Source: Thuidium tamariscinum (lineage: Eukaryota; Streptophyta; Bryopsida; Hypnales; Thuidiaceae). From it: a stretch of 64,000 nucleotides of DNA. The stretch spans positions 40,472,821-40,536,820 of the forward strand of contig OX344750.2 in the NCBI GenBank assembly GCA_947034885.2, written 5' to 3'. A program made the position numbers and the translations under genes. This document shows positions 37,168 to 64,000 of the stretch, in pieces (position 1 is the stretch's first letter; the number at the start of each line of letters is the position of its first letter). The notes below the pieces were generated by a model. That model saw nothing but the letters and a program-made list of their open reading frames with translations, ran no database searches and was not told where the DNA came from.

Positions 37168-38440
<1,273 letters not shown>

Positions 38441-44701: not shown

Positions 44702-45571
44702 CTAGCCTTTAATCCTTATCATCCCTGCCTTTTCAAGAAGGATCATCACCTCATCCATGCTGAGGCTTGGGGCATGAATGAATTTGTCCTTGTTGGCGTC
44801 TACTTTGCATAAATAACGGAAGATGTAGTATAGGTGTTTGCAGTTCACATATTTTCCTCGCTTTCCAATGGATGCTGACACCATACCACTAAAGTATAAG
44901 CAAGTGCAAGCTGGGAAATTTGAGAGAGTCACCCGATTAACCATGTGGTGAGGTTCTATACCAGATTATAGGGTAATGACACATCCAAGTCCTAGGTATG
45001 GCAAGATGTTAACTCCTAGAATAGTCCCTGTAACATTTCGAGCACTCTCCCATTGGTTCCGATGATCATCAGTAGGTGCCTTCTCATTCCTTCGAATGTT
45101 CTTCCCATTGCGAATGCATGGAGGCTTGTCAGAATGAGGTGGTCTCCCGTAAGTCCATTCAATAACTTCAAATAGTTTTGAAGATGTAAATAGGCGTCGC
45201 GGAGATAATGTTGGCTGCTCCTGAAGGTGGAACCCCGCGTCTTCAAAAAGGATAATTTCAGCAGTAGTGAGGTTTGTACCAATCATTACCGGCCAAATCT
45301 TGGGAATTTGTGGTCGACTAAGAACATGAGACCTTCTTGGACCCATCACGCATCGCTTGATATCATCCGGGCAAAACCAGAACTCATCTGTTTCCACTCT
45401 TGTTCCTTTGAACTCCCATTTTTGACCAACATACATAGGAGCAGCAGTGGCTTTGGAGCCCCTAACAATGATCATCTTGCACTTATCCTCTGTCTCTGAC
45501 TGAATGGCATGGCACTTCCTCTTGGACTTCACAGAAATGCGGGCTACGTGCAGGGTTGTTCTGTTAGACAT
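44702..45571 (-). pseudogene. SWIM zinc-finger protein ORF interrupted by one in-frame stop
   Basis: On the minus strand an ATG at 45571 opens 201 codons ending in TAA at 44966-44968. The same frame continues for 88 more codons to a stop at 44702, so one nonsense codon splits a 289-residue reading frame. The second part has the SWIM pattern C-x-C ... C-x-H (ACTC ... YVNCKHLYYIF), followed by a helix-like FIHAPSLSMDEVMILLEKAG. The first part has no domain I recognise (WEFKG, FWFCPDDIKRC). SWIM fingers occur in Mutator/FAR1-type transposases and in some plant proteins; no transposase core is seen here. The stop could have arisen from CAA by a C-to-T change. A GC-rich dodecamer array lies 170 bp upstream of the ATG. 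Confidence 0.6.
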
Positions 45572-45740: not shown

Positions 45741-46000
45741 GCGACTACGGGTGGGGCGACCGTGTCTCTGGTAAGAGCGACCGCGCATCCGATTTTCAAG
45801 GCGACCGCGGGTGCAGAGGCGACCGTGGGTACGGGGATCAGGCGCGACCGCGGGTTTAAAATCCAGGGCGACTGCGGCTCTTTCGCGACCGCGGGTGAAA
45901 GGGAAGGGCGACTTCGGGTATAGGGTGACCTCGGGTACAAGAGAAGGGCAACCTCGGGTGCAGGGCGACCGCGCCTCTGTCTTTGATGGCGACCGCGGGT
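45741..46000 (-). promoter_or_regulatory. GC-rich dodecamer array A, upstream of the SWIM ORF
   Basis: About 13 units of GCGACCGCGGGT and variants (for example GCGACTACGGGT, GCGACCGTGGGT, GCGACTTCGGGT, GCGACCGCGCCT) at irregular spacing. All read in the plus direction, so they are antisense to the ORF that follows at 45571. The GC content jumps from about 30% to well over 60%. The stretch between array and ATG (45572-45740) is also GC-rich with GTCGCG/GTCCCG repeats. Function as a promoter or leader is inferred from position only. Confidence 0.55.
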
Positions 46001-46759
46001 GTTTTTTACCCCTAAATGCTCAAGGCCTTTGGGGGAGTTTCTAGGAATTTATTCTAAAGTGAAGAAAAAAATAACTTTATGATGAGCTTTAAGAAAGAAA
46101 ATTTAAAATGTAACCATTCTAATTCAAACTAGACATGTCAGAGATCATTTAGGAAAACAAAACATGACTATATCACTTATGGATTGAAAGATTATAATGT
46201 TTAATCACTATAGTGTTCAAATTGCCAAAGAGATTTGAAGTCATTCAACCCTCCGTTTACAAGTCTAATCTAAAAAGTTTATGATTAAAAAAAATGGGAT
46301 GAAAGGGCTTTACAAGCATAACCCCGGTCAATTTATGGCTTCTCAAAATGTACTCTACAATCTTTTTCCTATATAACATACAATTCCAATAGACTTTAAT
46401 TTTGTTTGAAGCGTATACCGAGTTTGCCTTATATAATGGTTTTAAAATATAACTACCATTTTCAAAGTTTATTTATAGCATTGTGACCTTTTAAACTGCA
46501 ATCCCTTGATTATTACTACAGGTCTACACTTCATTGTAGTTTTCATTTTAAATAACAACAATATATTATACATTTTGAATTTTTTCTTGTAGGGGTGAGA
46601 GGGTGTGCCTCTAAAGGACCTTTGTGTTTGTGGTGCATTTCATTGAATTGACACAATCATTAACCCGTAAAGCCCTGAATTGCATTTCTAGGGATCTCAC
46701 TACCTATTGAATTTGATTTTCTTTCCTTTGAAATTTTGACACAACATGTGCTCGCAATT
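46001..46759. other. AT-rich intergenic DNA, no gene seen
   Basis: About 760 bp; no coding-like ORF or repeat recognised. Confidence 0.5.
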
Positions 46760-47590
46760 TAGGGGAAAAGGACCAACAATATAATCCCTTTTGACTACAC
46801 GATCAAAAAGTTAGGACATGACGTGTTGTTTCCTTTAAAATTGTGCGTAGCCCGGGCAACAAAAAAAAACTTCTTTAGAAATTGCGACATTAAGAAATAA
46901 AAATTTGAAATATCTTTATTAGATTTTTATCTATGTGTAAACCTTTGAATCATTCCATTTCAATAAATGAGTCAAAAGTTATGAGGAATTTTAGTTTGGG
47001 GTAGTCAATGGGTACTTATAGAATCTCTACTCTACCAAAAAAGTTTGAAATTCTTTATTTCATTCAATTTTTTATATTTTTGAAAAAATAGTGAAACATT
47101 GGATGAAGATTGTTTTTTACAATACTTTAACCAAAGTAATTGGCATTTGTCATTTTTATAAATAATTTGTTAACAACTTAGTATTTTCAAGCATTTTCTA
47201 TTTTTTTGTTGGTTTCTAACTTAATGTTTTTTCTCCCATATGTTGAACAATTCCAAATGATTAGAAATTTGTAGAATGTAGAGCATACATACCACTATGA
47301 TTCTAATATGAGTTTAAAGAATAACCATCAATTTTGAGTGTTTTTTATACTAATGTCACCTTGTGAAGGGCAATTGGCCAATTGCCGGAAAAAAAAGGGG
47401 TTTTGCTAGTACAAATGTTAATATCTTGCAATGTACACGGTGAAGATTTTCTCCACATCTTCTGAAACCATCCCACAAGAATATCTCACCATTTCATATG
47501 TCACAACAAAAATTTCAAAAACATTGCACTTGTATTACAAAACGCAATTTTGGAGCAATTTGGATAGAAATATACTTAGTTAAAAATCTT
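46760..47590 (+). mobile_element. Family F copy, head-to-head with the next
   Basis: It matches the family F copy at 28824-29718 in the same orientation ('AGCCCGGGCAAC', 'GAATCATTCCATTTCAATAAATGAG' in part, 'TTGTTAACAACTTAGTATTTT'). The left end is worn. It runs straight into the inverted copy at 47598, so the pair forms one large inverted repeat of about 1.8 kb. Confidence 0.6.
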
Positions 47591-47597
47591 GTGAGGT

Positions 47598-48549
47598 TAA
47601 CCCCTAAATGTTTTGGACCATGTTTTCCCCAAAACCGCTTCAAAACTGTCATTTCTTAGATAACTACCAAATTTTAAGAAAAAAACATTTTTAGACAAAA
47701 ATAACCGTAGGATCTTTTAGAATACAAGTTTGGAAAGATGTGAAAAAAATTTCAGCAACTTCCGCCATGTAGATTGCAAGATACTAGTGTTTGAAGTGAC
47801 AAAAATCATTTTTTTACCACTGCGGAAATCCGGGCAGCTGCACTACAAAAGACCATATCTGTATGGAAAAATGTCTGAAATGATTTTAACTCTTTGGAAT
47901 TATTCTTCAAGTGAAGTTGGCTACATGCTTGAAAAATTTCAGATCATTTGGAATTGTACAACATATAGGAAAAAAATATTAAGTAGAAAGAAGTAGAAAA
48001 TGAGCCAAAATACTAAATTATTAACAATTTATTTATAGAAATAAAAGAAGACAATCCCAATGGTTGTAATGTTGTGTTAAATAGTATACATCCAATGTTA
48101 TTATTTTTTTTCAAAAATATTAAAAATTGAATTAAATAAAGAATTTCAAACTTTTTATGTAGTGTAGAGATTCTATAACTAGCCGCAAACTACCTCAAAC
48201 TAAAAATCCTCATAACTTTTGACTCATTAATCAAAATGGAATGATTCAAAGCTTTACACTTAGATAAAAATCAAATAAACCAATTTCAAATTTAAACTTC
48301 TTAAAAAAGTAATTTTTACAAAAGTTTTTTTTGCTGCCCGGGCTGCCCGCCGAACGCATGAAACAACATATCATGTCATAACTTTTTAATTATGTAGTCA
48401 AAAGTCATGAAAATTGTTGGGCCCTAAAGCTACTCCTCGGGCACATGTTGTGTGAAAATTTCAAAGAAAAAAAATTAAAACTCCATCCGTAGTGAGCTGC
48501 CCAAAATCGCTATGTTGCCAAAAAACGCCGTTTGGTCCTTTAGGGGTTA
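47598..48549 (-). mobile_element. Family F copy, complete, inverted (952 bp)
   Basis: The ends are TAACCCCTAAA...TTTAGGGGTTA. Read on the minus strand the interior follows the 28824-29718 copy throughout. No ORF. Confidence 0.7.
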
Positions 48550-48763
48550 ACCAACTAAACCAAAGGCTAGAAAATAATAAAATAACCCCAAAGTTAATAT
48601 GTCGAAATACGATGAAAATGCCTAGTAAGGTGCTACAACATATCAATATGTAAGGTACTAAACTACTAGGCTATAAACTTCTGCTAGAAATCTTTTCAAA
48701 AAAACATTTTTGGAAGATATAGTGGGACTAATTTACCTTCCAAACAATTGGACTAATATCTAG

Positions 48764-51700
48764 TTACAAACAAACATCTGAATCGTTTTGCACTTCGTCA
48801 GCATCAGGGTCCGTATCTTCGCGCGATGCGTAACCAGCATCTGTGTCGCTATCGTGGCTTGAGCTATCATTCTCGTCCTCTTCTCTTGCTATTGGTTCTG
48901 GTCGTATTTCTCTTTCCACCTCCGAGGTCAAATTCCGCACAACTATGTCTTAACCACCAGGAATCGCAGTCTGGACTAGTCGTTTTGTAGGACGCGTTGC
49001 ATCAATAATTCCATCAACTACAGATTCAGGACCTGCTTGAACCGCTCTTGATTGGCTTGATTGCTGGACCGCTTGCGTAGAGCACCCTGCCCCAAGCCTA
49101 TAAGGTTCCACAACTTGATTTGCACGCTTTGGATGTCTGAGTGTCCTTTCATCTACTCTTCTAATGCGCCTTTTTTTACTTTTGTTTCTATTGTTGCTGT
49201 TGCGTAGTCGTTCTTCCAACGATATTTCTCTTGGCTCAGACACTAGGGTTGGTTGGGTGGCTTGTGGAGCGGACTCGGGGACTTCTTCATTGATGCTGGA
49301 TAGTGGACCTCCATCCAAAGGCGCCTTGTCGATGAACTAGGGGCCGATCTTCTGACTCTACCTTGGCTTGTATCTTCACCTCTGGGCGCACGGCCCCTTA
49401 TAGAAGGAGTTGTGACTGACCTTCTGACTGTAGTCTGCCCTATATGTCCACCTCGAGTCAAGGAAACATTCCGACTACGGTTGAGGATGGTATTCAGTGG
49501 CGCATCTGAATCATACTCAGCTGCCTCCGTTGTTTGTATGGTCGGTGAATTCATTGCTACCGAAATAGGAGTTACTTCTTCTACAACCTCTTCAATGTGA
49601 TCCACCTCTTCTTCTGCTTCAATTCCCGCATTGATTGGTGCAATGTTTCCAATATTCATTGCTCTGCTTGAAGGAATACGTGTTGGTACTGGAGATGTTA
49701 GTACTGGAGATGTTTCTTGAACATCTGAGGCAGGCATTTGATTATCTGCTTGTTCGTTGTTGTCAGAAGGTGTTCTTGCCGCAGTTCGTGGTGAAACTGT
49801 GCCCCAATTTCCGACCCACGCATCATCAGGGTTCCGCTCTGGAGAACGAAAAAGTTCTTCCTGAGCAACACCTTCCGCATCATTGCCACTTGCAAATGTA
49901 TTTCCATATCGATATGGCGGTGGACTTGGTGGAGGTGGGACCATATCTGCCCATTCATTGTGATCGCGCTAGAGATCTTCTTCTTCTCTTCGGACTAAAT
50001 TATCTTCGATAAAATCAAAATAACCCTCGTCCTCCGATCTTGAAGGCATAGGCTCGTCCCTCTCTTCGTCAGTGTCTCCATCCACGAGGACCCTTTCATA
50101 AAATTGAGCAGCATTGTACCCACGCTTTTGACGTTCCAAGTGGCAGTTAGCATAAATGTACACCAAATCTTGAGCCTTCTTTGTGGTCAAACGATTTCGC
50201 GTTTTACTGTGCACGAATGAATACATGCTCCAGTTTCGTTCACATGAAGATGCTGAACAAGTCAACCCTAGAATTCTCTTTGCAATCTTCGGAAGAGCAT
50301 CGCCGCCTACATGATTCCACCATTGATGGGGTTCTAAATTGGTCTCTGTGATGTCGAGATCCTCTTCTTGGGGATCAAATGGCCCTGTCTTCTCTTCAAA
50401 TTGGACAAGCTCTTGCATTGCCACGACCACTGAAACTCCTAATGATGGAGCTAGTTTTCGTATAACTCGATTCAAAGCTGCTTTGGCCGCCCCATCGTTT
50501 TGAATTTCTTCTACTCCTGCCAAAAACAGATTCAAGAGTGCTCCTGCATAGTGGAGGTCCGTTCGCATTAACTTCCAACGAGCTTCAAATTTCTTCTCGT
50601 AACGCATTGCAACCACAGGGTCTAAAAGAAATGGAGGATCCCTGAGAGCATACACGTGTTTCTTCAACTCGAACATTATCAACCAAGCTTTTGGCATTGC
50701 TGGTTTTTTGCCATCAAAGTGTCGTAGAGCAATGAGTACTGGCTCTATCATAAACACGAAATTCTTGCATTTTGACCAAAACCTTTCAGAATGAATGTTT
50801 AGCCGAACATCAATTGCTTTGCGCCTAATGGTACCTCCATTAGTTCGATTCTGCAAACTGAACTCGAACATCATGTAAGCGTCATCTGCAACCACGGTTT
50901 GCAAAGCTTGTTTGCAATCGAGTAGACGGTCTACCATAAGGAAATTGGTGGCAAACCGTGTCAAAGTAGGCAGCCTAAGCATTTTGTTTGGAGAATGTTT
51001 CCGAAACAAAGCCATAGTGAAATGGTATTTCCTGATATGCTTCACCATTGTCCTACACTCGCTTACCAAATCCTTCATCGTTTGAGACTTTCCCCAATCT
51101 TCCAAAAGCAAATCCAAGATGTGAGCCGCACACCCTTGTTTGTACATGTGGGGATATTTGAGTAACAAACATGACATAGTTCCAATCATTACTGAAGCAT
51201 TGTCTGTACATAATTGCACAATATTTGAAGGACCGGCCTTGTCTATGTACTTTGACATTAAAGCTGTCGTGTAGGCAATGTCCTTTGCTCCCGTACTGTC
51301 CTCTGATCCCAAAAACACATCCCCTGCTGGACAAACGAGCATCACGTTCATCAACGGTGGCCTATTGGTATCTGACCACCCATCTGAACAAATAGTTGCT
51401 CCATATTGCGCAATAGAGTTCTTTGTCCGGTCATTGACCATTTTTTGGACAACTTCTTTCTTCACATCAATCATTCTGGTTCGCAACGCGTTGAATGCTG
51501 GTGGACGATATAAAATTCCAGGTGCTGCAGTTTCCTTCATTGCATTTATAAATGCAGGGTGTCGCGTGACGTTGAATGCAATATTGGCTTCATAAAAAAA
51601 TGAAGCCCACGTCGCATCCAACTTCTGTCTCAAGCCTATTTGTAATGCTTCATCCATACTTCTTTGACGAGAAACCACAGGGCGGCTTCCTGTTCTGTCA

Positions 51701-52143
51701 ACCGTACTTGGAGTAGAATCCACTGAATCTAGGGTAGGGTTTGTCGGGCCGGTTGGACCCGTTGGATTTGAAGAACCACCCACCTCACCACCCTCTACCT
51801 CTTGAATGAGGGATTCTGTCGCACCAATGGCCTGATTGCCCACAAATGGTGTTTCAAACATTTCTTCAAAGCTCATGGCTTTTGGAACGTTTCCGTCGCA
51901 AGTCCTAAACTTTTCGAGTGCACTTCTAGGGATTTTTGGACAACGTTCTGTTGTTGCCGAGCCACCATATCCAAAGTGACTAAATGCTCTTTTCCGCACA
52001 AAGACTTTGCTCCACCCGCAAAACAAGCATTTCCGAGGATAGGGTGAATGATCATTTGGAACACATGGTATAAGCCAAGGGTCCCAATCTTTTGTAGCCC
52101 TACGCGTATCGGGCCGACCTTGACCACCACCTGGGACAACCAT
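48764..52143 (-). pseudogene. BED/DUF659/hAT-type transposase with long acidic tail, disrupted
   Basis: The first ORF (ATG 52143 to TAG 49969-49971) encodes 724 aa. Order of domains: a BED-like finger C39-x2-C42 ... H56 ... C68; a proline/threonine-rich linker; DUF659 core with SDGWSD (D254) and CTDN (D314); a hAT C-terminal domain with CERNWS (E635) and LVYIYANCHL. hAT enzymes cut and paste DNA using a D, D, E active site, and all three are present. Immediately after the TAG the same frame runs on for 242 codons (RDHNEWADMVPPP...). A one-base shift near 49310-49330 leads to a further frame (APLDGGPLSSINEE) that reaches TAA at 48950-48952, and the same frame again continues as DIVVRNLTSEVERE to a stop at 48764. 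The tail is disordered, Pro/Ser-rich then Asp/Glu-rich. I read this as a decaying copy, although the first 724 aa alone could be active. Terminal inverted repeats and an 8-bp target duplication were not found. Confidence 0.8.
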
Positions 52144-52392
52144 GGTGTAAATCCACAATGAGTTTCACCCCCAAAAAATTGATCCAAGAATCCAGTAACG
52201 AGGAAAAAGTTATGACAATGCTACCTACTATGAGAGGGTTTTTAAACCCCCTCAAAGCAAGGCTCTTGCCCTCCAATGAACCAAAACATCCGCAAGAAGC
52301 CTCTTTCGAAGGTTCAAGGCTAGAGTCTAATCAATGAAGCAAGGTAATCCCTCAGTGTTTCAGCTACAGTTTTATACTCTGTCGCCACAGGG

Positions 52393-52837
52393 GCGACTGC
52401 GGGTACAGGGCGACCGCGGGTAATGGGGGCGACAGCGCCTGCAAGGACGACCGCACGTACGAGGGCGACCGCGGGTAGTGGGGCGACCGCGGGACAAGGT
52501 GAGGAACTGCAAAAAGTGACCTGCGGTCGCACTCCCCGGACAGGCGACCGCGCATGGACGGGCGACCGCGTATGGAGGTGGCGGGCGGCAGTTCTGGCAC
52601 CGGAGGTCGCCCCTGACCCGCGGTCGCACTCCCCGGACGAGCGACCGCACTTGGAGGTGTCGGGCGGCAGTTTTGGCACCCGAGGTCGCCCCTGACCCGC
52701 GGTCGCACTCCCCGTACAGGCGACCGCGCATGGAAGTGGCGGGCAGTAGTTCTGGCACCCGAGGTCCCCTGACCCGCGGTCGCACCTTTGTAGGTTTTCA
52801 ATTTTTAGTAAGCGCAGTTGCTGTACACGCGGTCGCC
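52393..52837 (-). promoter_or_regulatory. GC-rich dodecamer array B, upstream of the hAT ORF
   Basis: The ATG-proximal half (52393-52500) has about six units of GCGACCGCGGGT type in plus direction, antisense to the ORF. The distal half switches to mixed orientation. It contains three tandem higher-order units starting GACCTGCGGTCGCAC or GACCCGCGGTCGCAC at 52518 (97 bp), 52615 (79 bp) and 52694 (77 bp), with a partial fourth at 52771. The array ends 250 bp upstream of the ATG at 52143. A regulatory role is inference. Confidence 0.55.
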
Positions 52838-53299
52838 TTACAGGACCAGCTGGCCTGAGCAAGGTGGACAATTATTAACCCAACTATAACAGGTATTATT
52901 TGAGAGATTCGGAGATTCCTCCTAGTTCCACATTATATCCCACTTCATTCTCATTAAAAGTAGCATCTAAATTACTATGTAGCAATAGTTACTCCAAAGT
53001 GATTTATCATTTAATGCACATAGAAGCTTTTAAAGGTATTTCCAACCCCTTCACCACCAAGCCCTATTGGCTCTTTCTCCAAGAAATCATGAACCTTCAA
53101 ACCTCAATAAAAAATATCATACTTTTACTTAGGAATGTTGAGTTCTATGAGAGCTCAATTATGGAGGAGGACAACCCTCAATTTCATGATATTTCAAATG
53201 CTTAATCCCTAAAGGACTAAGAAGATACAATGTGTCATCTTCAAAGTTTTCAATGGCAATTTCTTTTAAGGGTGAAGCAAATCTCAATATGAAACAAAG
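52838..53299. other. Intergenic DNA, no convincing gene
   Basis: A 101-codon open frame (52900-53205) has no recognised domain and AT-rich, non-codon-like composition. I do not call it a gene. Confidence 0.45.
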
Positions 53300-54520
53300 G
53301 GAATGTAATATTTTTGGGATCTCAGTATTAGACTTAGATTATTGGGAAAAAAAATGGGAAGACAAAATTTTAAAAAATGACACTTATTCAAAAATGTATA
53401 CTTGAACTTCTACCAAAACATTATGGAGATAGAGTTTCTATTAAAATTCAATGGAAACCCCCCCCCCCCCCTAGTACTTTAAAAAAAAAAGGAAATGTAA
53501 TATTTTTGAGATCTCAATATTAGACTTAGATTATTGGGAAAAAAAATGGGAAGACAAAATTTTAAAAAATGACACTTATTCAAAAATGTAAACTTGAACT
53601 TCTACCAAAACATTATGGAGATAGAGTTTCTATTAAAATTCAATGGATCCCCCCTCCCTAGTACTTTAAAAAAAAAAGGAAATGTAATATTTTTGAGATC
53701 TCAAAATTAGACTTAGGTTATTGGGAAAAAAAATGGGAAGACAAAATTTTAAAAAATGACACTTATTCAAAAATGTAAACTTGAACTTCTACCAAAACAT
53801 TATGGAGATAGAGTTTCTATTAAAATTCAATGGATCCCCCCCCCTAGTACTTTAAAAAAAAAGGAAATGTAATATTTTTGAGATCTCAAAATTAGACTTC
53901 GATCAGTTGAAAAAAAAATGGGAAGACAAAATTTTTAAAAATGACACTTATCCCAAAATGTATACTTGAACTACTACCAAAACATTATGGAGATAGAGTT
54001 TCTATTAAAATTCAATGGATCCCCCCCTAGTACTTTAAAAAAAAAAAGGAAATGTAATATTTTTGAGATCTCAAAATTAGACTTCGATCAATTGAAAAAA
54101 AAATGGGAAGACAAAATTTTTAAAAATGACACTTATCCCAAAATGTATACTTGAACTACTACCAAAACATTATGGAGATAGAGTTTCTATTAAAATTCAA
54201 TGGATCCCCCCCTAGTACTTTAAAAAAAAAAGGAAATGTAATATTTTTGAGATCTCAAAATTAGACTTCGATCAATTGAAAAAAAAATGGGAAGACAAAA
54301 TTTTTAAAAATGACACTTATCCCAAAATGTATACTTGAACTACTACCAAAACATTATGGAGATAGAGTTTCTATTAAAATTCAATGGAAACCCCACCCCC
54401 CCTAGTACTTTAAAAAAAAAAGGAAATGTAATATTTCTGAGATCTCAATATTAGACTTAGATTAGTTGAAGAAAAATGGGAAGACAAAATTGAAAAAATA
54501 TGGCACTTATCCAAGAATGT
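53300..54520. repeat. Satellite-like tandem repeat, about 185-192 bp x 6.5
   Basis: The phase marker AATGTAATATTT stands at about 53302, 53494, 53681, 53866, 54051, 54235 and 54425. Each unit ends with a C run (7-14 C) then CTAGTACTTT and an A run. Copies 1-3 read TTATTGGGAAAAAAAATGGG. The others read TCAATTGAAAAAAAAATGGG (or TCAGTTG) with ACTTATCCCAAAATG. The two variants therefore occupy separate blocks. The last copy is divergent. Confidence 0.92.
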
Positions 54521-55554
54521 GGAAATAGAAGGACATTTAGAAATAAAATATTAGAAATTTAAGTTACCTTTTTAGCTCTAACATGGACCTTAATGACATT
54601 GATCTAAGCAATTAGATAGTATCCTAAAGAGGATATCTTAGCCTCCAAAATTTATGTGGATTTAGTTGCAATAATGGATTATGTTGAATGCATCTTAAGG
54701 ACAAGTATTTATTGTAAAGATGCTTGCATTGACCAAATGATAACAATGTTGTGTACAATTTGAGAAGAACTTTACTCCAAGTCAAATGAGTAGGAGGTTT
54801 CCATGAAAATGAATCCAATCTCATGTCATAGTAATTCGTGTTTAATCCTTATTTGAAGCCTTTGTGTAGGCTTCTCATGATTTAAGGGTTTAGGTAAATG
54901 GGTTTTTTTTTGCTATATAACTTCCATTCTAAAGTTGTAATTGAAATATCAATTATATTTCTAGATAAATAACATTCCAAAGTAGAGGGACAATGGAAGT
55001 TTAGGGATAATTAAGGATTTCGGTTTTATTGAATATAATACTCCGAGAACATATAATTTAAGATCTAAAAAATGTTCAACAAAAGATCTTTAGGAATAAT
55101 TAAGGGTGAAGCAAATCTCAATATGGTAATACTAAATTATCTTTAGATTCCAAATAAATTTTTCTAAGGGGTTAAGAAATCTATATTCATCTTTTTATAA
55201 ATTTGTTTCTCCCAAAACTACGTTTGTGGCCCATGATGTTGATCATCAAGAATTGCTATAATGTAAAGATCTAACCATTGAAATGTTCTACAATTAATTC
55301 CATACATGCTAGATATAATAATTTTTACTTTTGTACAGTTAAAATTTAAAAAAATTATAACACCTATGTGCCCAAAAATATGGAAGGATACAATTGATTG
55401 AAATCCTCCATTGTCAAAACAGTTTTAGTCTTGTAGGGATTAAAGGAATGCAATATTACTATTGCATAAAAAATTTGTAGTTAATAGACACTTGAGTAGA
55501 ATGCTACTTCAATGTTGCAAAATTATAAATTATAAATTGAAGTTATACATATAT
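54521..55554. other. AT-rich intergenic DNA, no gene seen
   Basis: About 1 kb between the satellite and the outer inverted repeat; no ORF above 70 codons, nothing recognised. Confidence 0.5.
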
Positions 55555-56980
55555 CTTTTAGTAAATGGCAAACACCATTGTATTAGAAATGAACATTTAG
55601 ACCAAAAACATTTGAGCCAGAAGGGGTGAACAATAAAAATAAGTTATACTATAGTGAAACTAATGCAAATATTTGAATGCAATTCAATGGACACACTCCA
55701 AAAATGAATTTTAAGCCTTTAGGTGATTTGAATCAGGTAGTTTTGACAAGTGCTATTTTTAATTCAAGTAATAAATTTTAGGAAAAAATATGAATTTAGG
55801 CACATATAATTGTAAGATCCTATATTACACTAGTTTGAGAAGATGTGGAGGAAAGTTAACCAATTTTCTACTATGAAAATTGCCAAGATATTAACATTTG
55901 AATTGATTGTAATTCTTTTGAGGGCCTTGTGATGTATGAAAACCTAGGAAGTTGCACTTCATACAATCACATTTGTATAAAATAATTGTCGTAAATGGTG
56001 TTTCTTTTCTATACCAAATTACCAATGTTCAAAGGCAATTCATAAGATGCTTGAAATTTTTTTTAGGCAAACTACAAGTGTATAACATTTTTGGAAAATA
56101 TATGTCAGTACATAGGAATATAGAATGATTTCAAATAGTAAGTTGTTAAGAGTTGAATTATATAGAATTGAAAATGCCAATTCCAATGGTAATTATTATC
56201 CTACATCTAATATTTCAATTTTTGTTATAGATTTTGAATATTGAATTAAATGAAGAACTTTACAGAATTTATTGTGCATTTGTTGATTAGAAAACTAGGA
56301 AATCCCTAACAACCCTTAATCAAAATCCCTCTTAACGATCATGACAGATGCTACTATATGAGTCTAAAAATGTGAATCCCCAAGACTATTCACCTATAGT
56401 ATAGGTGTTTAAATCATAGAAACTTTTTATAATTAGAGATTTTTAGTGTGATTATACTATACACACTTATATTATTGGTGCATATGTTATAAACACATTG
56501 AAATATTCAATAGTTGTGGGATACCTACTTATATCTATAATCAAAGCTTACATACTTGCATTTCTATCTTCTCATGCTAGCATTTTAGTAACAAAATCAA
56601 ATTAAGAAATTCACATTTTAAATTTATTTTGAAAATTTGTAGAGCACTTATTTCAAAGCCCAAAACTTATTGGGGTTATGCGTCTCCAATGTATGCATCT
56701 CCAATGTTTGTATCTCATTTTTTCGGTGACCAAATTTTTTAAATTGAACATATGAAAAGAGGATTGTAAGACCGTGCATGTGTTTTGTAAATTTAACACA
56801 CTCGTGATCAAACATTATAATCTCTCATCCATAAGTGATAATATTCTATTTTCTTTACCTTCATAACCTCTAATATGCATAGTTTAAATTTGTATGCTTA
56901 TAATTTAAAGAAAATTGATGAAGCATATGAAATATTATCCTATTCCTAAAAACTAAAAAGGAATATGAAAGTTGCATGTA
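55555..56980 (-). repeat. Left copy of a >1 kb inverted repeat
   Basis: Read as reverse complement this stretch follows 61150-62290 from end to end, at roughly 75-80% identity by eye. Landmarks are TTTTTTAGTAAATGG at the outer end, 'CAAACTAATGCAAAT', 'TGATTGTATGAAG', 'ATAAGTGATAATATT' and ACTTGTACGCTTATAATTT-type sequence at the inner end. An insertion of about 250 bp (near 56570-56820) breaks this copy. Its middle (55730-56340) is related to family F. Together the two copies flank a coiled-coil ORF and GC array C. Confidence 0.65.
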
Positions 56981-57330
56981 CAAAAATGTATTAATTGAAA
57001 GAAACATCTATTTTATGAAATTTAGATATGGACACTTTCTTCATAAAAATTTGAAATGTCTCCATATTACATATTGAGCATTTTATGGAGATGCTTTTTG
57101 AAAGATTGAATGAGCGTTTTGGATGTTTAAAAAAAACCCGTCAACATGCAAATGAAGGAATATGAATTCTTTTGCATCCATACACATCAATGATAGAAAT
57201 GAAACACCCCAAGTTTGCAAAATAATACTAAAAATTAATAGTAGCCTTTTTATATATACATGTTTACAAAAGTCATAAGTCCTCCAAAAAATGCTAGCAT
57301 TGCTAGCCCCCCCAAAGATCATACAACATT

Positions 57331-58728
57331 CTACTTGCTTTGTTCATCTGTCTTTAGCCTTTTCTTAGCTTCCAAGTCTTTCTTCGCCTCCTTGTAGGCA
57401 CTATCCAAATTGGATTGAAGAGGAAAATCCCACCATTTATTTTTCATGTACTCTTTCTTCAAATTCTGTGCATTGAGCAAATTCATCTTCTTCTTCTCCA
57501 CTTCCCCGGCCACATCACTTTCCAATGTGAGAGCATGGGCTAACTTCTTCTTCAGGTCCTCTGCTTCCAACTTCAATGTCTCATGTTGCCTCTCATGATC
57601 TTCAGAATCTTGTATATCAACAATACGATCAAGAGGGGCTTTGTCCTTCATTTTCTGAAGGTCACGTAATTTTGATTGTGCACCTTCAAGAGATCTTTTT
57701 TCATTTTCCAAGCAGTCAGCTTCGATGTGACAATCTTCCTTGAGTTTAGCCAATCGTTCTTCTACAAATTTGTTAGTTGAAGAACTAGAACCTTCACCCC
57801 CTGAAACGGAGAAGTTCAGATAGAATGCTTCCAAGTTCAAGATTTGCTCATGTTGCTTGGACAACTGAATTCGTCCCGATTCAATGAGGGCTTGAAGGGT
57901 TGGAACATCATCAGAAGTATCAGTCACTGCCCCTTCCTCCAAAGTCCTTTTCTCTTCATTTGCTCTATCCAACTCTTCAAGCACACTCTTCAATTGAACT
58001 TTATAAAAGTCGTTCAATGGAATATCTTCGTTGGCCTCCACACTTGCAGCTTCAATAGATCCTTCAATTCTTGGCATCCCTTCCAATGAAGGCAATGTCA
58101 ACGTGGGGCCCACCTCCACTTCCCCCTCTTCCGAAGGCTCCAAATTAGCCAATGTCTCACCCACATGTGGCAGTCCAACATCCATCAACTCATCTTCACT
58201 ACTTTCGTGATCCGACCACACGATCTCATTGTTCGGAACTTCATTCTTGATGAAAATCTTTTTCTCTAAACCTTCACGTGGGTTTTGGGAGGGACCCGCC
58301 CTAGGAATGTCCTTGGTTGACGGTTTTTGGACAAGCTTTGCTCCCTTAATGGTGCTCCAATCCACCCTTCGTTGAAGAATAACTTCCGCGTACACCATCT
58401 CACATAGAAACAAGGGAATTTCATTCCGAGGCACACTTCGTGTCTTGTACAAGTATCGATATACTTCGATACATCTTTGTACAAATCCATCGTGAGTGCA
58501 AGCATGAAGATTTGCCATGTTTGACTTCAAGTGGATTTTGTGTCGATGATAGGGGAAAAGCTTATCAATGTGGCACCATTGTACAAATGCCCTACAAGTG
58601 GTCGCGGTCGAAAAGCCTTCGATCCTCTCCCAACCTCCATGAGCCACGACATTAGAGTCCACAAGGACGTGTCGTTGTCTTCTTTGCATCTTGCCTTTGG
58701 CTTTACAGTTCCTCCGGGTGGCGTCCAT
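57331..58728 (-). CDS. Unknown coiled-coil protein, 465 aa
   Basis: The ORF opens at ATG 58728 (MDATRRNCKAKGKMQRRQRH); upstream codons are open but lack an ATG. Residues 1-150 are basic and Cys/His-containing (FVQWCHIDKLFPYHRHKIH, MANLHACTHDGFVQRC). An acidic stretch with SDHESSEDE follows, then a long Glu/Lys-rich coiled coil over about the last 200 residues (VLEELDRANEEKRTLEE, LKLEAEDLKKKLAHAL). I recognise no family. No enzymatic motif, signal peptide or membrane segment is seen. It lies between the two inverted copies (55.55-56.98 and 61.15-62.29 kb) and 166 bp downstream of GC array C, as other ORFs here do. It could be an accessory gene of a large mobile element or a captured host gene. 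A frame of this length free of stops in AT-rich DNA is unlikely by chance. Confidence 0.6.
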   Translation of the reverse strand: MDATRRNCKAKGKMQRRQRHVLVDSNVVAHGGWERIEGFSTATTCRAFVQWCHIDKLFPYHRHKIHLKSNMANLHACTHDGFVQRCIEVYRYLYKTRSVPRNEIPLFLCEMVYAEVILQRRVDWSTIKGAKLVQKPSTKDIPRAGPSQNPREGLEKKIFIKNEVPNNEIVWSDHESSEDELMDVGLPHVGETLANLEPSEEGEVEVGPTLTLPSLEGMPRIEGSIEAASVEANEDIPLNDFYKVQLKSVLEELDRANEEKRTLEEGAVTDTSDDVPTLQALIESGRIQLSKQHEQILNLEAFYLNFSVSGGEGSSSSTNKFVEERLAKLKEDCHIEADCLENEKRSLEGAQSKLRDLQKMKDKAPLDRIVDIQDSEDHERQHETLKLEAEDLKKKLAHALTLESDVAGEVEKKKMNLLNAQNLKKEYMKNKWWDFPLQSNLDSAYKEAKKDLEAKKRLKTDEQSK

Positions 58729-58893
58729 TGGATTGAAGTAGATGGAGGTATTAAGAAATACCAAAATGCGACAATAGCTGCCCCAATAGATGCACGAACC
58801 ATACAATCACAGTAAAAAAAACCAAGTACTAGACACGCAGTCAGCCACGAGAAGCGGGTGACAGAGCAGTGTGCAGCGCTGGAATTGCAAGTG

Positions 58894-59200
58894 GGCGAAT
58901 GCGGGTGGGGCGACCGCTTATAAACCCGATGTCGCCCTGGGGCACGTGCGTTCCGTGCGAGGGCGACTGCGGGTGGGGCGAGTGCGGGAAGGGCGATCGC
59001 GGGTCCTTTGAAGGACCTGTTTTGCGGTCAGGGCGACCGCGCCTGGGCGAGTGCGCGAAGGGCGACCACGGGAAGGGCAACCGTGGGTCCTTCACAGTAG
59101 TGGCGACCGCGGGTAGGGCGAGTGCGCGAAGGGCGACCGCGGGTCCTTTTACGAGGTCATTTATTTCTGAATTTCTCGCCTTCTGACTTGGGCGACCACA
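58894..59200 (-). promoter_or_regulatory. GC-rich dodecamer array C, upstream of the coiled-coil ORF
   Basis: About 14 units such as GCGACCGCGGGT, GCGAGTGCGGGA, GCGATCGCGGGT and GCGAGTGCGCGA. Nearly all are in plus orientation, antisense to the ORF. A block of roughly 70 bp (GCGAGTGCGCGAAGGGCGAC... GGGTCCTT) is duplicated within it. The near edge is 166 bp from the ATG at 58728. Confidence 0.55.
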
Positions 59201-60039
59201 GGTTGTTCACCAAGGAAATCTGAATTTTGGATTTTGCCCTCTGAAAAATAGTTGTAGGAATGAAAAGGAAGCCGATGTGAACTAAAAAAAGGATTCATGG
59301 GAAGAAATGGTGTGTAAAAGAACAAGGAAATGCCCATTTTTTCAAAAAATTAAAGTTTATAAAAATAAAAAGGGAAATCATATTAACTAAAGAATGCTCA
59401 TTTGGAGAAAATTCCATGAGAAAATAAATATAAAAATAACACAATCAATGAAAGGCTTGAAAGAAAAATGCATTGTAGGAATGAAAAGAAAAATCTCAGT
59501 ATCAATAAAAAAAAATCATGAATTCAACTACACTAGTGCAGTGATGACCTGAAGTATGTCAAAGCTCAATGCTCAATAATGTAATTGAATGCCTATATAA
59601 GTTAAAATGCAATGGTATACATTTCCACCAATATTTGGTGTGTAATTTTTGAGCATAGGAAGCTGAGATTCATTTTATATAGATTAATAATGATGTCCAA
59701 AGTTGTACACCATCTAATTTGGTGGGAAAAATATCTAACTAAAGAAATTGTTGCAAAAGTATTCTATATAAAAATAACTACCAAGTGGACTACTAAGTAT
59801 TATTCAACCTTTTTTTTTGGATCCATATTGCTCACATAAAAAAATATAGAAGCATGTCTATTCTTTATTGTTTTTTTATTTAAGTTGAAGGTGACATTTG
59901 AGAGCCATTGTAAATACAAAATCACATCATTTCTTTGTTTTCCTTATGACCCCCAATCAACATCCAAGAGCATAATAAAACATGAATTTCTTTTTTGGGT
60001 TTTAGAATATGATGATTATGGTGTGAAAGACCCTAAATC
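59201..60039. other. AT-rich DNA inside the inverted-repeat unit
   Basis: No coding-like ORF; nothing recognised. Confidence 0.45.
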
Positions 60040-60560
60040 CAAAAGCACATTAGCCTTGTTTTTGTGGGAGGTTTCTATTGGGAACCTCATTTAATTCTAA
60101 GACATATTTTTTTATTTTTTTAGAAAGTTTCCCATCATAACTTCATTAAATTCAAAAGAGCATTTTCTTTTAAGAGGTTCACATCAGAAACCTCATTTAA
60201 TTATAAAACTAATATCTTAATTATTTAGTAAGGGTTTTCATTAGGAACCTTATTTAATTCAAAAACATATTTATCTTGAACCCCTTTTTTTTAAAGGGTT
60301 CCCACTGAGAACTTCATTGCACTCAAAAACACTTTTTTTTGGATGTGGTTCCCATTGGAAACCTCATTTATTTCAAAAACACAATTCCCTCTTTTTTTGG
60401 CGTGGTTTACATTGCAAACCTCATTTCATAAAAAAAAACAATTTCCCTCTTTTTCAAAAGAGGTTTGCATTGGGAACCTCATTCAATCCAATAATTTGTT
60501 TTATTTTATAAAAAATTTGGTTCTTGTTGTGCATAACCTCATATGCATTAAATTTTGTGA
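60040..60560 (+). repeat. Degenerate minisatellite, about 57 bp x 9
   Basis: The motif GGTTYCCATTGGGAACCTCA recurs at about 60081, 60136, 60187, 60244, 60307, 60357, 60414, 60472 and 60531, each time followed by TTTAATTCAAAAACA. The motif is itself a small palindrome (GGTTCC...GGAACC). Confidence 0.8.
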
Positions 60561-61149
60561 TGCCTTATTTGGAATACTCATTCAAAAGATGTTAAGTGAT
60601 ATAACCTCACCTTTGGAATTCTTGGAAAAAAATTAAATTTTTAAGCTATTAGTAGTTGAGGTTAGGGTTCAACTTTAAATCAACCTCTACTTAAATAACT
60701 ATTTAGAGAGAACAAAACATTATTTTCTTTTGGGTGAAATCATAGATCAAATATTGAAAGATTCCTTAGTTATTGGTCACAGGATTGATGATATCATCAT
60801 TTGGAACATGAAGGGGGGGGGGGGGGATTTTAGTGCTCAATTTCCTTTTCTATCTAGCCTTTCGGCCCTTTTCAAGCTTGGCCGCTTTGTATATTGGATT
60901 CATCTTAATGCAATAGTTCTTCCATTTTTTCAAATATATATTTAATTTTTTTTTTGCAAATTCATTTCAAAAATAAAGTATTACAAAATCTAAATTCAAA
61001 GTGGAAAAATTATAGGATCTAAATATTCTAAAATGTAGCTATTGTATATTGTATTATTGTCCAACAATATGTTATAATCTTATTAAAATATCAAGGATTA
61101 TTTTGAGTTTTCTTCTATTCTAATCCTTGCCTTTATCCTTTACAAATTA
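60561..61149. other. AT-rich DNA with a G14 run
   Basis: A homopolymer of 14 G stands at 60813-60826. No ORF of note otherwise. Confidence 0.5.
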
Positions 61150-62290
61150 AAATCAATCCTCTTTAGTTTTTTGAGATAGGACAAGTTCTTATACACTTTA
61201 ACAATTCCTTAAAATTATAAGCGTACAAGTTCTAACTAGGTAAATGCAAAGATTATCAAGGTAAAGAAAATACAATATTATCACTTATGGAATTATGGAT
61301 CAAGAGAGTATAAATAGGTATGCCACAACTATAGAATATTTCAACGTGTTTATAACATATACCCTATAATATAAGTGTGTATAACATAAGTGTACTAGAA
61401 ATCTCTTTTCTATAATCCAGACACGTATATTATAAGTGAATCGTCTTCTAGTCTTAGGGACTCACATTCTTAGGCTCATATAGTAGCATCCATCACGAGT
61501 TTTAAGAGGGATTTTGGATGCAATAGATCTCCCATTTGTTCAAAAAATAAAAAATAAAAAATTGTACAATGGTTTGTAAAGTTCTTCATTTAATTCAATA
61601 TTCAAAATTTATTACAATAATTAAAATATAATGTGTAGGATAATTCTTTCAAATTTGAACCATTGAAATTAGCATTTTCAATTCTAGAATTGAACTACTA
61701 ACAACTTAGTCTTTGAAATCATTCAATATTCCTATCTACTTGCCATGTTTTCCCAAAATGTTATACACTTCCAAATGGTTAAAAAGTTCTCAAGTATATT
61801 ATCAATTGCCTCTAAACATTGGTATAAATAAGCACCACCATTTACGGCAATTGTTTTATATAAATGTGATTGTATGAAGGGCAACTTCCAGATTTTCTTA
61901 CATGTCACGGCCCTCAAAAGAATTTCAACCAATTCAAATGTTAATAGCAAGGCAATTCTCATGGTAGAAAAATTTGAAATTTCCTCCACCACTTTTCAAA
62001 CTAGCATAATATAGGATCCTACAACTATATGTGCCTCAATTCATTTTTTTCCTCAAAATCTACTACTTGTATTCAAAAGAGCAATTATGGATAAAACAAA
62101 ATTCAAATCACTTAGAGGTTTAAAATTCATAGTTGGAGAATGTTCATTGAATTGCATTCAAAGATTTGCATTAGTTTGGCAAAGGTATAACCTCTTCTAA
62201 TTCTTCACTCCATTTGGCTCAAATGCTTTCTTCTATTAAATGTTAAATTTTAGTACAATGAGATTTTCCATTTACTAAAAAATTAGGATA
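61150..62290 (+). repeat. Right copy of a >1 kb inverted repeat
   Basis: The partner of 55555-56980. The middle (61500-62110) is related to family F elements in direct orientation. The outer end falls at about 62290 (CATTTACTAAAAAATTAGG), 50 bp before the next GC-rich units. Confidence 0.65.
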
Positions 62291-62339
62291 CAATACATTA
62301 AACTATTCCCTAATGACAAATTTTTAGTTGTCATGTAAA

Positions 62340-62500
62340 GCGACTGCCTTTAGAGCGACCACGCTTCACAATTTATTTATTTATTTTGAACCAAAGGGGC
62401 AAGCCCTCTGCATGAAGAAGCTTAACAAAATTTGCAAACCCTGAAAGTAAGGCGACCGCGGGTAAGGGGCGACCGCGCCTCAAGGGCGATCGCCGGTGCG
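62340..62500 (+). repeat. GC-rich dodecamer array D, distal units
   Basis: A few units (GCGACCACGC, GCGACCGCGGGT, GCGACCGCGCCT, GCGATCGCCGGT) in plus orientation, opposite to the array D units nearest the following ORF. Separated from those by about 400 bp. Confidence 0.6.
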
Positions 62501-62617
62501 AAAAGTTGCGTCAGAACACACTACCATTCCAGGCTCGGTCGCCCCTTAAGAGAATATTCTATTTACTAAATAGGTTTCATCCAGTGTCCCGCAATGCTCT
62601 ATCAGCAGGGTTGAAGT

Positions 62618-62900
62618 TCAAGTTTCAACGAGACATTTCTCGATTTTATCCATCTTCAGAAGTTTTTTGTTGTAGACATCATAAACTCGATTGAAAACAT
62701 GATGAGCACTTTTCACTTGCAGCTCCAACGACACGGGATTATCTCGACACTTAGCAGTGCACAGTACAATTGCCTTCCCGAGCAAAACTTCCACCACATT
62801 CTCATTCTCAACTCCCTTGATACTGCCTTGCGATATAAACACCTCCTTCCCGCCCTTGCGTGGAGGAAGCTCTTTCTTCAGAGTATGGGAGCTCCTCAAC
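62618..62900 (-). pseudogene. Unrecognised coding-like fragment on the minus strand
   Basis: The minus-strand frame ending at 62618 reads, before its stop, KGGKEVFISQGSIKGVENEN, then VVEVLLGKAIVLCTAKC and VYDVYNKKLLKMDKIEKCLV. Composition and codon use look coding, unlike the repeat-derived upper part of the same frame (62900-62995), which runs through the GC array. It may be a gene piece captured between the arrays, or chance. No family recognised. Confidence 0.25.
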
Positions 62901-63078
62901 CGCAGTCGCCCCCCAACCGCGGTCGCCCCCCATCCGCGGTCACCCCCCATCCGCGGTCGCCCCCATCTGCGGTCGCCCCCCAGTCGCGGTCGCACTACCC
63001 GCGGTCGCCCTACGCACCCGAGGTCGCCTCACCCGTGGTCGCGTCTGGACCCGCACGCGCCTGGGGCGACTTCGGGTA
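62898..63078 (+). promoter_or_regulatory. GC-rich dodecamer array D, proximal units
   Basis: Six units at a 16-17 bp period (AACCGCGGTCGCCCCCC, ATCCGCGGTCGCCCCC and variants), followed by irregular units (ACCCGCGGTCGC, ACCCGAGGTCGC, ACCCGTGGTCGC). They face the same way relative to the downstream ORF as in arrays A-C (GCGACCGCGGGT on the antisense strand), apart from one reversed unit near 63065. The array ends 187 bp upstream of the ATG at 63265. Confidence 0.6.
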
Positions 63079-63264: not shown

Positions 63265-64000
63265 ATGTCCAACCCAATAGAAGATGGCGACGTGAGGCAC
63301 AAAGGTGTTTTGGATACTCATCCAATATTCTCAGAAATGCCTAATCCCACAGAGGGTACCAGTACCTTGAGGCAAAAATCCCTTTGGGATTTGGATGATC
63401 CACAACACTTTCTAGAGCCTATATTTACAAGCGAAACAACAGGGAATGAAGCTCAATTGAAGAAAAAGAAGTCCAGGTCTGCTCATGATAAGGATCCAAT
63501 ATATCCTCCTTCAAGTTATACGAAGTATGCATACGAGGTGTGCCTTCAATGGTACGCTGGCAAAAGTGTACAATTTTTGGAGGCAAACTATTTGAGGGAT
63601 GCTGGAACAGGCACGGAGAAGCTGACGGGGGATTTGGAGGCCCGAATCTTAAGCAAGTGTTATGAATCAGAGGACTTCAAAGACGTGGACTTAACGTACA
63701 ATTCCAGATTTTGTGATTGGATGACTGATACTATTCAGGCAGTAACTTTTAATACCAAGAAATTGATGATAGAGTTCCGTGCACTAATCACAGGACGAGT
63801 GGAAGATGAAGAGGCAAAGGAATTCCGTGCGAAGATGGAGTGGTGGCATACTGCGGCCAAGAGATTGTCAAAGTTTGGATCGAGGGGTTTCAAGTGGAAA
63901 AATGACGCTGTGAAGGTTGCATTTGCAAGAGATGGTGGAGTGAGTATCATATGGATTCCACCCACGGCAAAGGTTGAGGCCCTCGGTGGTTTTTCTCGTG
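63265..64000 (+). CDS. Unknown protein, N-terminal 245 residues, runs off the window
   Basis: An ATG at 63265 (MSNPIEDGDVRHKGVLDTHP) opens a frame with no stop to the window end. Composition is typical coding. Residues 70-80 are Lys-rich (LKKKKSRS), followed by YAYEVCLQWYAGKSVQFLEAN, then an alternating acidic/basic, helix-like stretch (EAKEFRAKMEWWHTAAKRLSKFG). The frame is still open at VEALGGFSR. I recognise no domain. An array of GC-rich dodecamers lies 187 bp upstream, as for three other ORFs in this half of the window, which suggests the same type of element. The gene could be mobile-element derived; the part after 64000 would decide. Confidence 0.6.
   Translation, partial: MSNPIEDGDVRHKGVLDTHPIFSEMPNPTEGTSTLRQKSLWDLDDPQHFLEPIFTSETTGNEAQLKKKKSRSAHDKDPIYPPSSYTKYAYEVCLQWYAGKSVQFLEANYLRDAGTGTEKLTGDLEARILSKCYESEDFKDVDLTYNSRFCDWMTDTIQAVTFNTKKLMIEFRALITGRVEDEEAKEFRAKMEWWHTAAKRLSKFGSRGFKWKNDAVKVAFARDGGVSIIWIPPTAKVEALGGFSR

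Follow-up and report, generated by a model that had tools for sequence, protein, structure and literature searches.

The window studied here is the whole stretch of 64,000 nucleotides at C2:40,472,821-40,536,820 (contig OX344750.2) of Thuidium tamariscinum, whose genome was surveyed over 363 Mb and 19 contigs. It carries arrays of a GC-rich dodecamer, which lie inside one hAT transposon of 30,233 bp, at 45,551-75,783, with the right part of the element beyond the window. The five genes of this element encode a hAT transposase, proteins C and E, a kinase-domain protein (D) and a RING-finger protein (F). The original prediction, made from the letters of the window, had set the arrays before four unrelated open reading frames (ORFs) and had added that these were possibly several ORFs of one element type. 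The second suggestion was borne out by one single element with arrays before all five of its genes; the first was not, three of the four being genes of this transposon and the fourth, a 'SWIM' ORF, lying in its flank. Sequence was compared over 40 kb beyond the window and in five motif clusters on C1 (K5, K7, K12, K18 and K21). The window copy and its closest relatives are called W-type, and two related families, K5 and X, are described below. Positions are those of the window, continued past its right end.

45543-45550, unstranded: left target-site duplication, GCTACGTG, 8 bp; identical right copy at 75784-75791, beyond the window
45551-45562, plus strand: left terminal inverted repeat (TIR), CAGGGTTGTTCT, 12 bp; boundary common to copies K18 and K21; inverted at the right end, 75,783
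45741-46000, plus strand: array A, left subterminal array, 13 units, every unit inward-reading
48767-52143, minus strand: hAT transposase gene, left edge approximate and set by alignment; DUF659 and hATC; broken here into an ORF of 724 amino acids (aa) at 49972-52143 and remnants
52393-52836, unstranded: array B, 5' of the hAT gene; gene-side units antisense to the gene, far-side units mostly inverted
57334-58728, minus strand: gene C, coiled-coil protein, 465 aa, carrying the N-terminal domain (WCHIxKLFP...VDWSTIK) common to C, E and F
58895-59203, unstranded: array C, 5' of gene C
62452-62497 (62355-62542 including 3-mismatch units), unstranded: array D', small and degenerate, 5' of array D; missed by the original prediction
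62898-63077, unstranded: array D, 5' of the kinase gene, with the leader block GTGGYTGANTGCRTG after it
63265-64,917, plus strand: gene D, 551-aa protein-kinase-domain protein, running past 64000 beyond the window
68,931-69,027, beyond the window: array E, 5' of gene E
69,372-70,865, plus strand, beyond the window: gene E, 498 aa
72,756-75,227, minus strand, beyond the window: gene F, RING finger, one stop in the window copy; 824 aa in K12
75,433-75,613, beyond the window: array F, right subterminal, 5' of gene F

Each gene is a single open frame in at least one copy and is thus apparently intronless; in the window copy C, D and E are open. The intact transposase, found in copy K7 on C1, has 1127 aa and matches PF05699 (1.9e-7) and PF04937 (7.1e-32), the corresponding values for the X transposase being 1.2e-9 and 3.5e-36. 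The kinase domain PF00069 is matched at 9.1e-10 in the window copy and at 1.5e-11 in K12, which has HND and DFG at the usual places; the window copy reads YND and DFR there. The RING match of gene F, at 5.5e-4, is below the Pfam cut-off, and that of X, at 5.8e-6, is just below it; the RING cysteines and histidines are all preserved in family X. An N-terminal domain is common to proteins C, E and F (aligned with that of E at 30-42% identity), and its AlphaFold model is fair, with a predicted local distance difference test score (pLDDT) of 74 and a core of about 80-95. This domain gave no PDB match by fold or by sequence and no relative in viral contigs. Genes C and E have no Pfam match at E<=0.05, and F has just the weak RING-type match and one other weak match. 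No capsid, packaging ATPase or polymerase was found among the five W-type products and the X proteins scanned; on this evidence a virus-like element (Polinton or endogenous giant virus) was rejected, and the replication or packaging signal once proposed for the arrays finds no support.

Ends, copies and related families

Both ends of the element carry CAGGGTTGTTCT, a short TIR of the CAGGG type usual in the hAT superfamily, and the flanking duplications are GCTACGTG, present twice, in the window copy and ATGTTTAG in K18. Copies K7, K12, K18 and K21 are W-type, aligning with the window copy at about 94-99% in long pieces, and the array layout recurs in them at the same relative places, K18 alone of the four having been read end to end. 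With one mismatch allowed, the W end pattern has 338 matches genome-wide (177 + 161) and its reversed control has none. Pairs were formed from opposite left and right ends less than 80 kb apart among the first 100 end matches listed, which cover C1-C4: 54 of these ends form 27 pairs and 46 are unpaired. Among the pairs so obtained, seven measure 10.4-12.5 kb, 15 measure 26.9-33.2 kb and three 51.3-51.6 kb, and the last two 58.9 and 63.8 kb. An identical 8-bp target duplication flanks 25 of the 27 (the window copy, K18 and 23 of the 25 others), and the two pairs without one, at C2:13,392,366 and C3:35,535,004, have two mismatches each. The three pairs of 51.3-51.6 kb lie at C2:8496968-8548247, C2:13392366-13443958 and C3:20984598-21036221; two of them have exact target duplications, and a kinase match stands at differing places in the two that have one.

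The second family, K5, is about 37 kb long, has about 68-76% identity to the window copy and carries the same motif as W. Its end pattern has 301 matches (139 + 162), compared with one for the reversed control. The first 100 K5-type ends listed, on C1-C6, yield 38 pairs and 24 unpaired ends; among these pairs 23 measure 8.3-12.3 kb and 13 measure 32.5-39.6 kb, the others being 46.8 and 60.1 kb. The sole K5-type pair checked for a duplication (1/1), of 36.7 kb, has ATGAAGGT on both sides. The third family, X, is represented near the window copy by the following element.

82,056-99,119, continued coordinates: family X element, 17,064 bp, flanked by CTTAAACT (1/1 X copy checked)

Its genes encode a hAT transposase, a kinase (with one internal stop) and a RING protein, with an array 5' of each and arrays inside both ends. 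The array unit is TGGACGGCCTGG, unlike the W motif, and the end units are mostly on the plus strand at the left end and mostly on the minus strand at the outer right end. At up to two mismatches, 25 X and 3 W units occur in the X arrays (2,044 bp), compared with 0 and 62, respectively, in the W arrays (1,854 bp). Among shuffled motifs, 0/200 reached the family's own count and 16/200 reached the three W units in the X arrays. Since the X motif was derived from these very arrays, its number in them is no independent evidence, a caveat for the reading favoured below; the genome is the better control, with 668 exact matches to the X dodecamer versus 8 to its reversal. The X transposases are 99-100% identical (best 44 of 790), a value that points to an apparently young family of recent spread.

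Protein searches scored the best 41 of 868 hAT, 79 of 688 kinase, 44 of 790 X hAT and 55 of 1298 RING candidates, and since scoring was limited to the best candidates, the copy numbers are lower bounds. Among those scored, 19/41 hAT, 39/79 kinase and 35/44 X hAT sequences are stop-free. The ratio of nonsynonymous to synonymous substitution rates (dN/dS) between W and K5 is 0.18 for the first 607 aa of the transposase, 0.35 for C and 0.14-0.15 for the kinase, and the low kinase value indicates that the element has retained its kinase gene as a component.

The distribution of the motif follows that of the elements. The 14-mer GGGCGACCGCGGGT has 1,468 exact copies genome-wide and its reversal has none; the matches listed are clustered, the larger clusters being 16-36 kb wide. 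The first 100 matches listed, all on C1 up to 24.03 Mb, were assigned individually: 68 lie inside paired elements, which occupy 0.9% of C1:1-24.03 Mb, another 23 are found no more than 40 kb inward from an unpaired end, and the remaining 9 belong to two loci identified as elements by other evidence, namely a 94% match to a K5-type left end at C1 2.84 Mb and RING, kinase and hAT matches at C1 13.97-14.00 Mb. All 100 are therefore assigned to elements, and no array away from an element occurs among them, in keeping with the original prediction. Seven further C1 loci compared by sequence all match the two families, W and K5. In short derivatives of 8.9-12.4 kb, exact unit matches recur every 162 bp or so, as though the array had expanded in the way of a young satellite; loci with this spacing are C1:16496874-16497498, 22254209-22254917, 22661753-22662556 and 22746583-22747224.

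Placement and orientation of the arrays

The window was scanned with the unit GCGACCGCGGGT at up to two mismatches unless stated otherwise, with 10 first-order Markov sequences as control. It contains 50 matches, 13 of them exact, all inside arrays A, B, C, D and D', compared with a control mean of 0.2; outside the arrays there are none, and four at three mismatches. Arrays A to D are thus real and lie where they had first been described, with the previously unlisted D' in addition. The spacing of units within the arrays is variable rather than head-to-tail, and the number of units differs among copies of the element.

Distances were measured from the ATG to the near end of the nearest unit, with up to three mismatches allowed. 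Arrays precede 5/5 genes of the window copy, 3/3 K5 genes examined and 3/3 X genes, and the nearest unit lies 167-315 bp 5' of the five ATGs of the window copy, 147-348 bp over 13 gene starts in the window copy, K7 and K12, 148-263 bp at the three K5 genes and 178-263 bp at the three X genes. The distances first reported are about right, at 250 bp for the hAT ORF, 167 bp for the coiled-coil ORF and 188 bp for the ORF at 63265.

Units are mostly antisense to the gene they precede, at 44/59 for the five W genes and 36/39 for the three K5 genes, and form a majority at 8/8 genes, with just 10/18 at the hAT gene of the window copy. In family X the antisense counts are 17/24 for hAT, 10/14 for F and 2/10 for the kinase. 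At the genes measured, orientation relative to the ORFs thus favours the original prediction, which had named random orientation as its refutation; its claim that the ATG-proximal units oppose the ORF in all four cases holds for the majority of units and is slightly too strong, since the nearest unit at the 63265 ORF is on the gene's own strand. Array F consists of a gene-side '+' block and an end-side '-' block, and units point inward at both element ends (A '+', outer part of F '-').

At 6/11 promoters (W hAT, W F, K5 hAT, X hAT, X D and X F) a TATA box is found no more than about 60 bp from the array's near edge, a count for which chance expectation was not computed. At X D a weak unit lies past the TATA box, and at the window hAT gene the TATA is at -233, 17 bp past the nearest unit. 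The leader GTGGYTGANTGCRTG is common to 5/5 aligned starts with no TATA box at that position (W C, D and E; K5 C and D). The shared promoter signal originally envisaged fits this placement, with a TATA or shared leader 3' of the arrays, and is not proven by it; arrays A and F are also subterminal repeats, so the arrays are not promoter features alone.

The 'SWIM' ORF (44966-45571) is in the left flank, and the first 21 bases of the element contain the ATG of this ORF (45569-45571), so array A is no promoter of this ORF. When the flanks are joined with one target copy, a 376-aa stop-to-stop frame crosses the junction, with 182 aa upstream and 194 downstream; judged by this frame, the insertion split a gene, of which the ORF is one half. 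A SWIM-finger identity found no backing, the ORF having no Pfam match of any kind at E<=0.1. Minus-strand ORFs occupy 75786-78818 (continued coordinates) right of the element, and the nearest joins the 'SWIM' ORF in frame across the empty site. It is our impression that the flanking pieces derive from one decayed MULE-like gene; the pieces tested gave no Pfam match.

Within the element, one further feature belongs to the window copy.

47603-48544, unstranded: nested insertion, 942 bp, not in four other W-type copies, which are continuous there with a short overlap; GGTTAACC at both flanks

The flanking GGTTAACC is a palindromic 8-mer, and both ends of the insertion begin CCTAAA; it may be a hAT-like element, small and non-autonomous. 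A 185-bp tandem repeat of 6.6 copies, with fewer units in other copies of the element, lies at window 53292-54520, between array B and gene C, and window 37482-38051 holds a TTTA microsatellite of about 143 copies with 98% matches.

How the arrays may be read

The reading that we favour, with modest confidence, is that the arrays are cis-sites read by a protein encoded by the element, which would couple promoter control to end recognition. The family-specific GC-rich dodecamer arrays, each with several to many units, would then serve a giant multi-gene hAT as cis-regulatory and end-recognition sites, and candidate readers are the N-terminal CxxC..H..C finger of the transposase and the N-terminal domain of C, E and F. 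A protein bound at the ends would assemble the transposition complex, and one bound at the internal arrays would activate or de-silence all genes of the element in concert, so that the promoter and end roles would be coupled. The layout suggests a built-in switchboard for the element's own proteins.

Comparison of the candidates among families bears on this proposal. The two families with the same motif, W and K5, are identical at 51/57 positions of the finger region (residues 16-72), compared with 13/50 for W and X, whose motifs differ. Identity in the transposase core (215-593) is 0.71-0.73 for W-K5 and 0.48-0.50 for W-X, and in residues 73-95 it is 0.65 and 0.39; the hATC region gives 46/70 (0.66) for W-X, K5 being cut there. 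In the finger, residues C39, C42, H56 and C68 are the same in all four sequences compared. The N-terminal domain of F, at 0.82 for W-K5 and 0.36 for W-X, is accordingly still a candidate reader.

Several observations weigh against a dedicated reader. The linker after the finger has also diverged, with 15/56 (0.27) for W-X and 0.48 for W-K5, and since it is as low as the finger in W-X, low W-X identity alone is no proof; as these alignments have it, the finger stands out by its W-K5 conservation, the low value with X being common to the linker. The transposase has no Pfam zf-BED match, the finger model is poor (pLDDT 55.6), and of the three families seen just one has another motif. At the X kinase gene 8/10 units are on the gene's own strand, and dN/dS among W-type copies is 0.41-1.20. 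The decay per CpG, for K12 versus four copies pooled, is 0.106 in arrays, 0.110 in non-coding and 0.093 in coding sequence, a weak test given gappy array alignments and a non-CpG transition rate of 0.047 versus 0.017-0.019; with array decay like that of the rest of the element, these copies show no array-specific protection from methylation, although the arrays are CpG-rich (observed/expected ratio of 1.16, versus 0.49, 0.68 and, in the host part, 0.51).

A bolder version, which we offer tentatively, would make the element a self-contained regulon, in which one element-encoded reader of a family-private dodecamer, present at all gene starts and both ends, would turn on the transposase, kinase, RING and accessory proteins. 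Families would split by changing dodecamer and reader, so that co-resident giants would not cross-activate, and the kinase and RING proteins might act on host silencing or the cell cycle.

Among the alternatives, the one that survives best, and that we nevertheless consider unlikely, regards the arrays as sites through which a host transcription factor acts on enhancers or promoters; the element would have acquired them a single time and multiplied them along with itself, and would have no reader of its own. The position of the arrays 5' of TATA boxes or a shared leader agrees with such an origin, as does the occurrence of the same motif in two families about 71% identical in transposase. Against it, all 100 listed 14-mer matches were assigned to elements, none of these being at host promoters; arrays also stand at both ends, no element ORF of at least 100 aa closely following A; and the related family X uses a different motif.

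Rather more doubtful is a role in transposition only, with subterminal sites for the transposase, the internal arrays having been carried along when gene modules duplicated and playing no part in promoters. This would account for the inward-reading units at both ends; moreover, the domain common to C, E and F and the homologous leaders of C, D and E mean that array and leader may have duplicated as a block. However, the hAT and kinase genes, which are mutually unrelated, carry arrays too, and do so in all three families. Unselected minisatellites growing by slippage in GC-rich DNA are very improbable, for although unit number differs among copies and the spacings of about 162 bp in some derivatives point to enlarged arrays, the same motif stands at 5/5 genes and both ends with variable, not head-to-tail, spacing, and it recurs in a second family with consistent orientation.

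Comparison with known transposons

With their 8-bp target duplications, short CAGGG-type TIR and DUF659 and hATC transposase, the present elements resemble the hAT superfamily. hATs are usually described as elements of a few kb, mostly with one gene, and Ac carries short motifs near its ends. Compared with such hATs (Ac, Tam3, hobo and the DUF659-class plant hATs), the elements here differ in their 17-37 kb, in having a kinase and a RING protein among their five gene products, and in the arrays at internal gene starts. No comparable giant multi-gene hAT was found in the literature searched.

CACTA elements (En/Spm, Tgmt*, Jozin; TnpA-type) are alike in that a short motif, of 12 bp in En-1 and Jozin, is repeated many times within each end, in direct as well as inverted orientation, and in that large elements occur, Tgmt* measuring 20.5 kb (PMC2613891, PMC8978399). 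A transposon protein binds the subterminal repeats, and soybean subfamilies differ in motif (PMC2613891); in Jozin the 12-bp motif occurs 19-23 times at the ends (PMC8978399). CACTA ends and a 3-bp target-site duplication differ from the CAGGG ends and 8-bp duplication seen here, and arrays before every gene are, unlike in CACTA elements, a feature of the present ones; the resemblance is in design only.

VANDAL elements are MULE-type, whereas the five gene products here have no MULE match and the transposase matches hAT models only. VANC proteins are sequence-specific anti-silencing proteins; VANC21 binds a short motif, often in tandem repeats of noncoding parts of VANDAL21, and the targets of VANC6 have another motif (PMC5735166, PMC10398659). 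The likeness lies in a short motif that differs between families and is repeated in noncoding DNA (introns and upstream regions) of several element genes (PMC5735166, PMC10398659). No VANC homologue was recognised here in Pfam scans, no direct comparison with a VANC sequence having been made; and the array CpGs here are not spared from decay, an indirect test that gave anti-silencing no support.

Starships, the giant fungal transposons, use a tyrosine recombinase, in contrast to the hAT transposase here. They are alike in measuring tens of kb and in having several genes besides the mobilising one (PMC11623301).

By analogy, the present elements combine design features of CACTA and VANDAL elements in a hAT frame. 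The hATs here have expanded to 17-37 kb and encode a kinase under purifying selection together with a RING protein and a domain that has no recognised Pfam or PDB relative, and the genes and ends of each giant hAT carry one private repeat. Two motif types in many copies within the same genome make a joint change of motif and reader directly testable, and likewise the coupling of promoter and ends; whether motif and reader change together is a question that CACTA and VANDAL elements raise as well.

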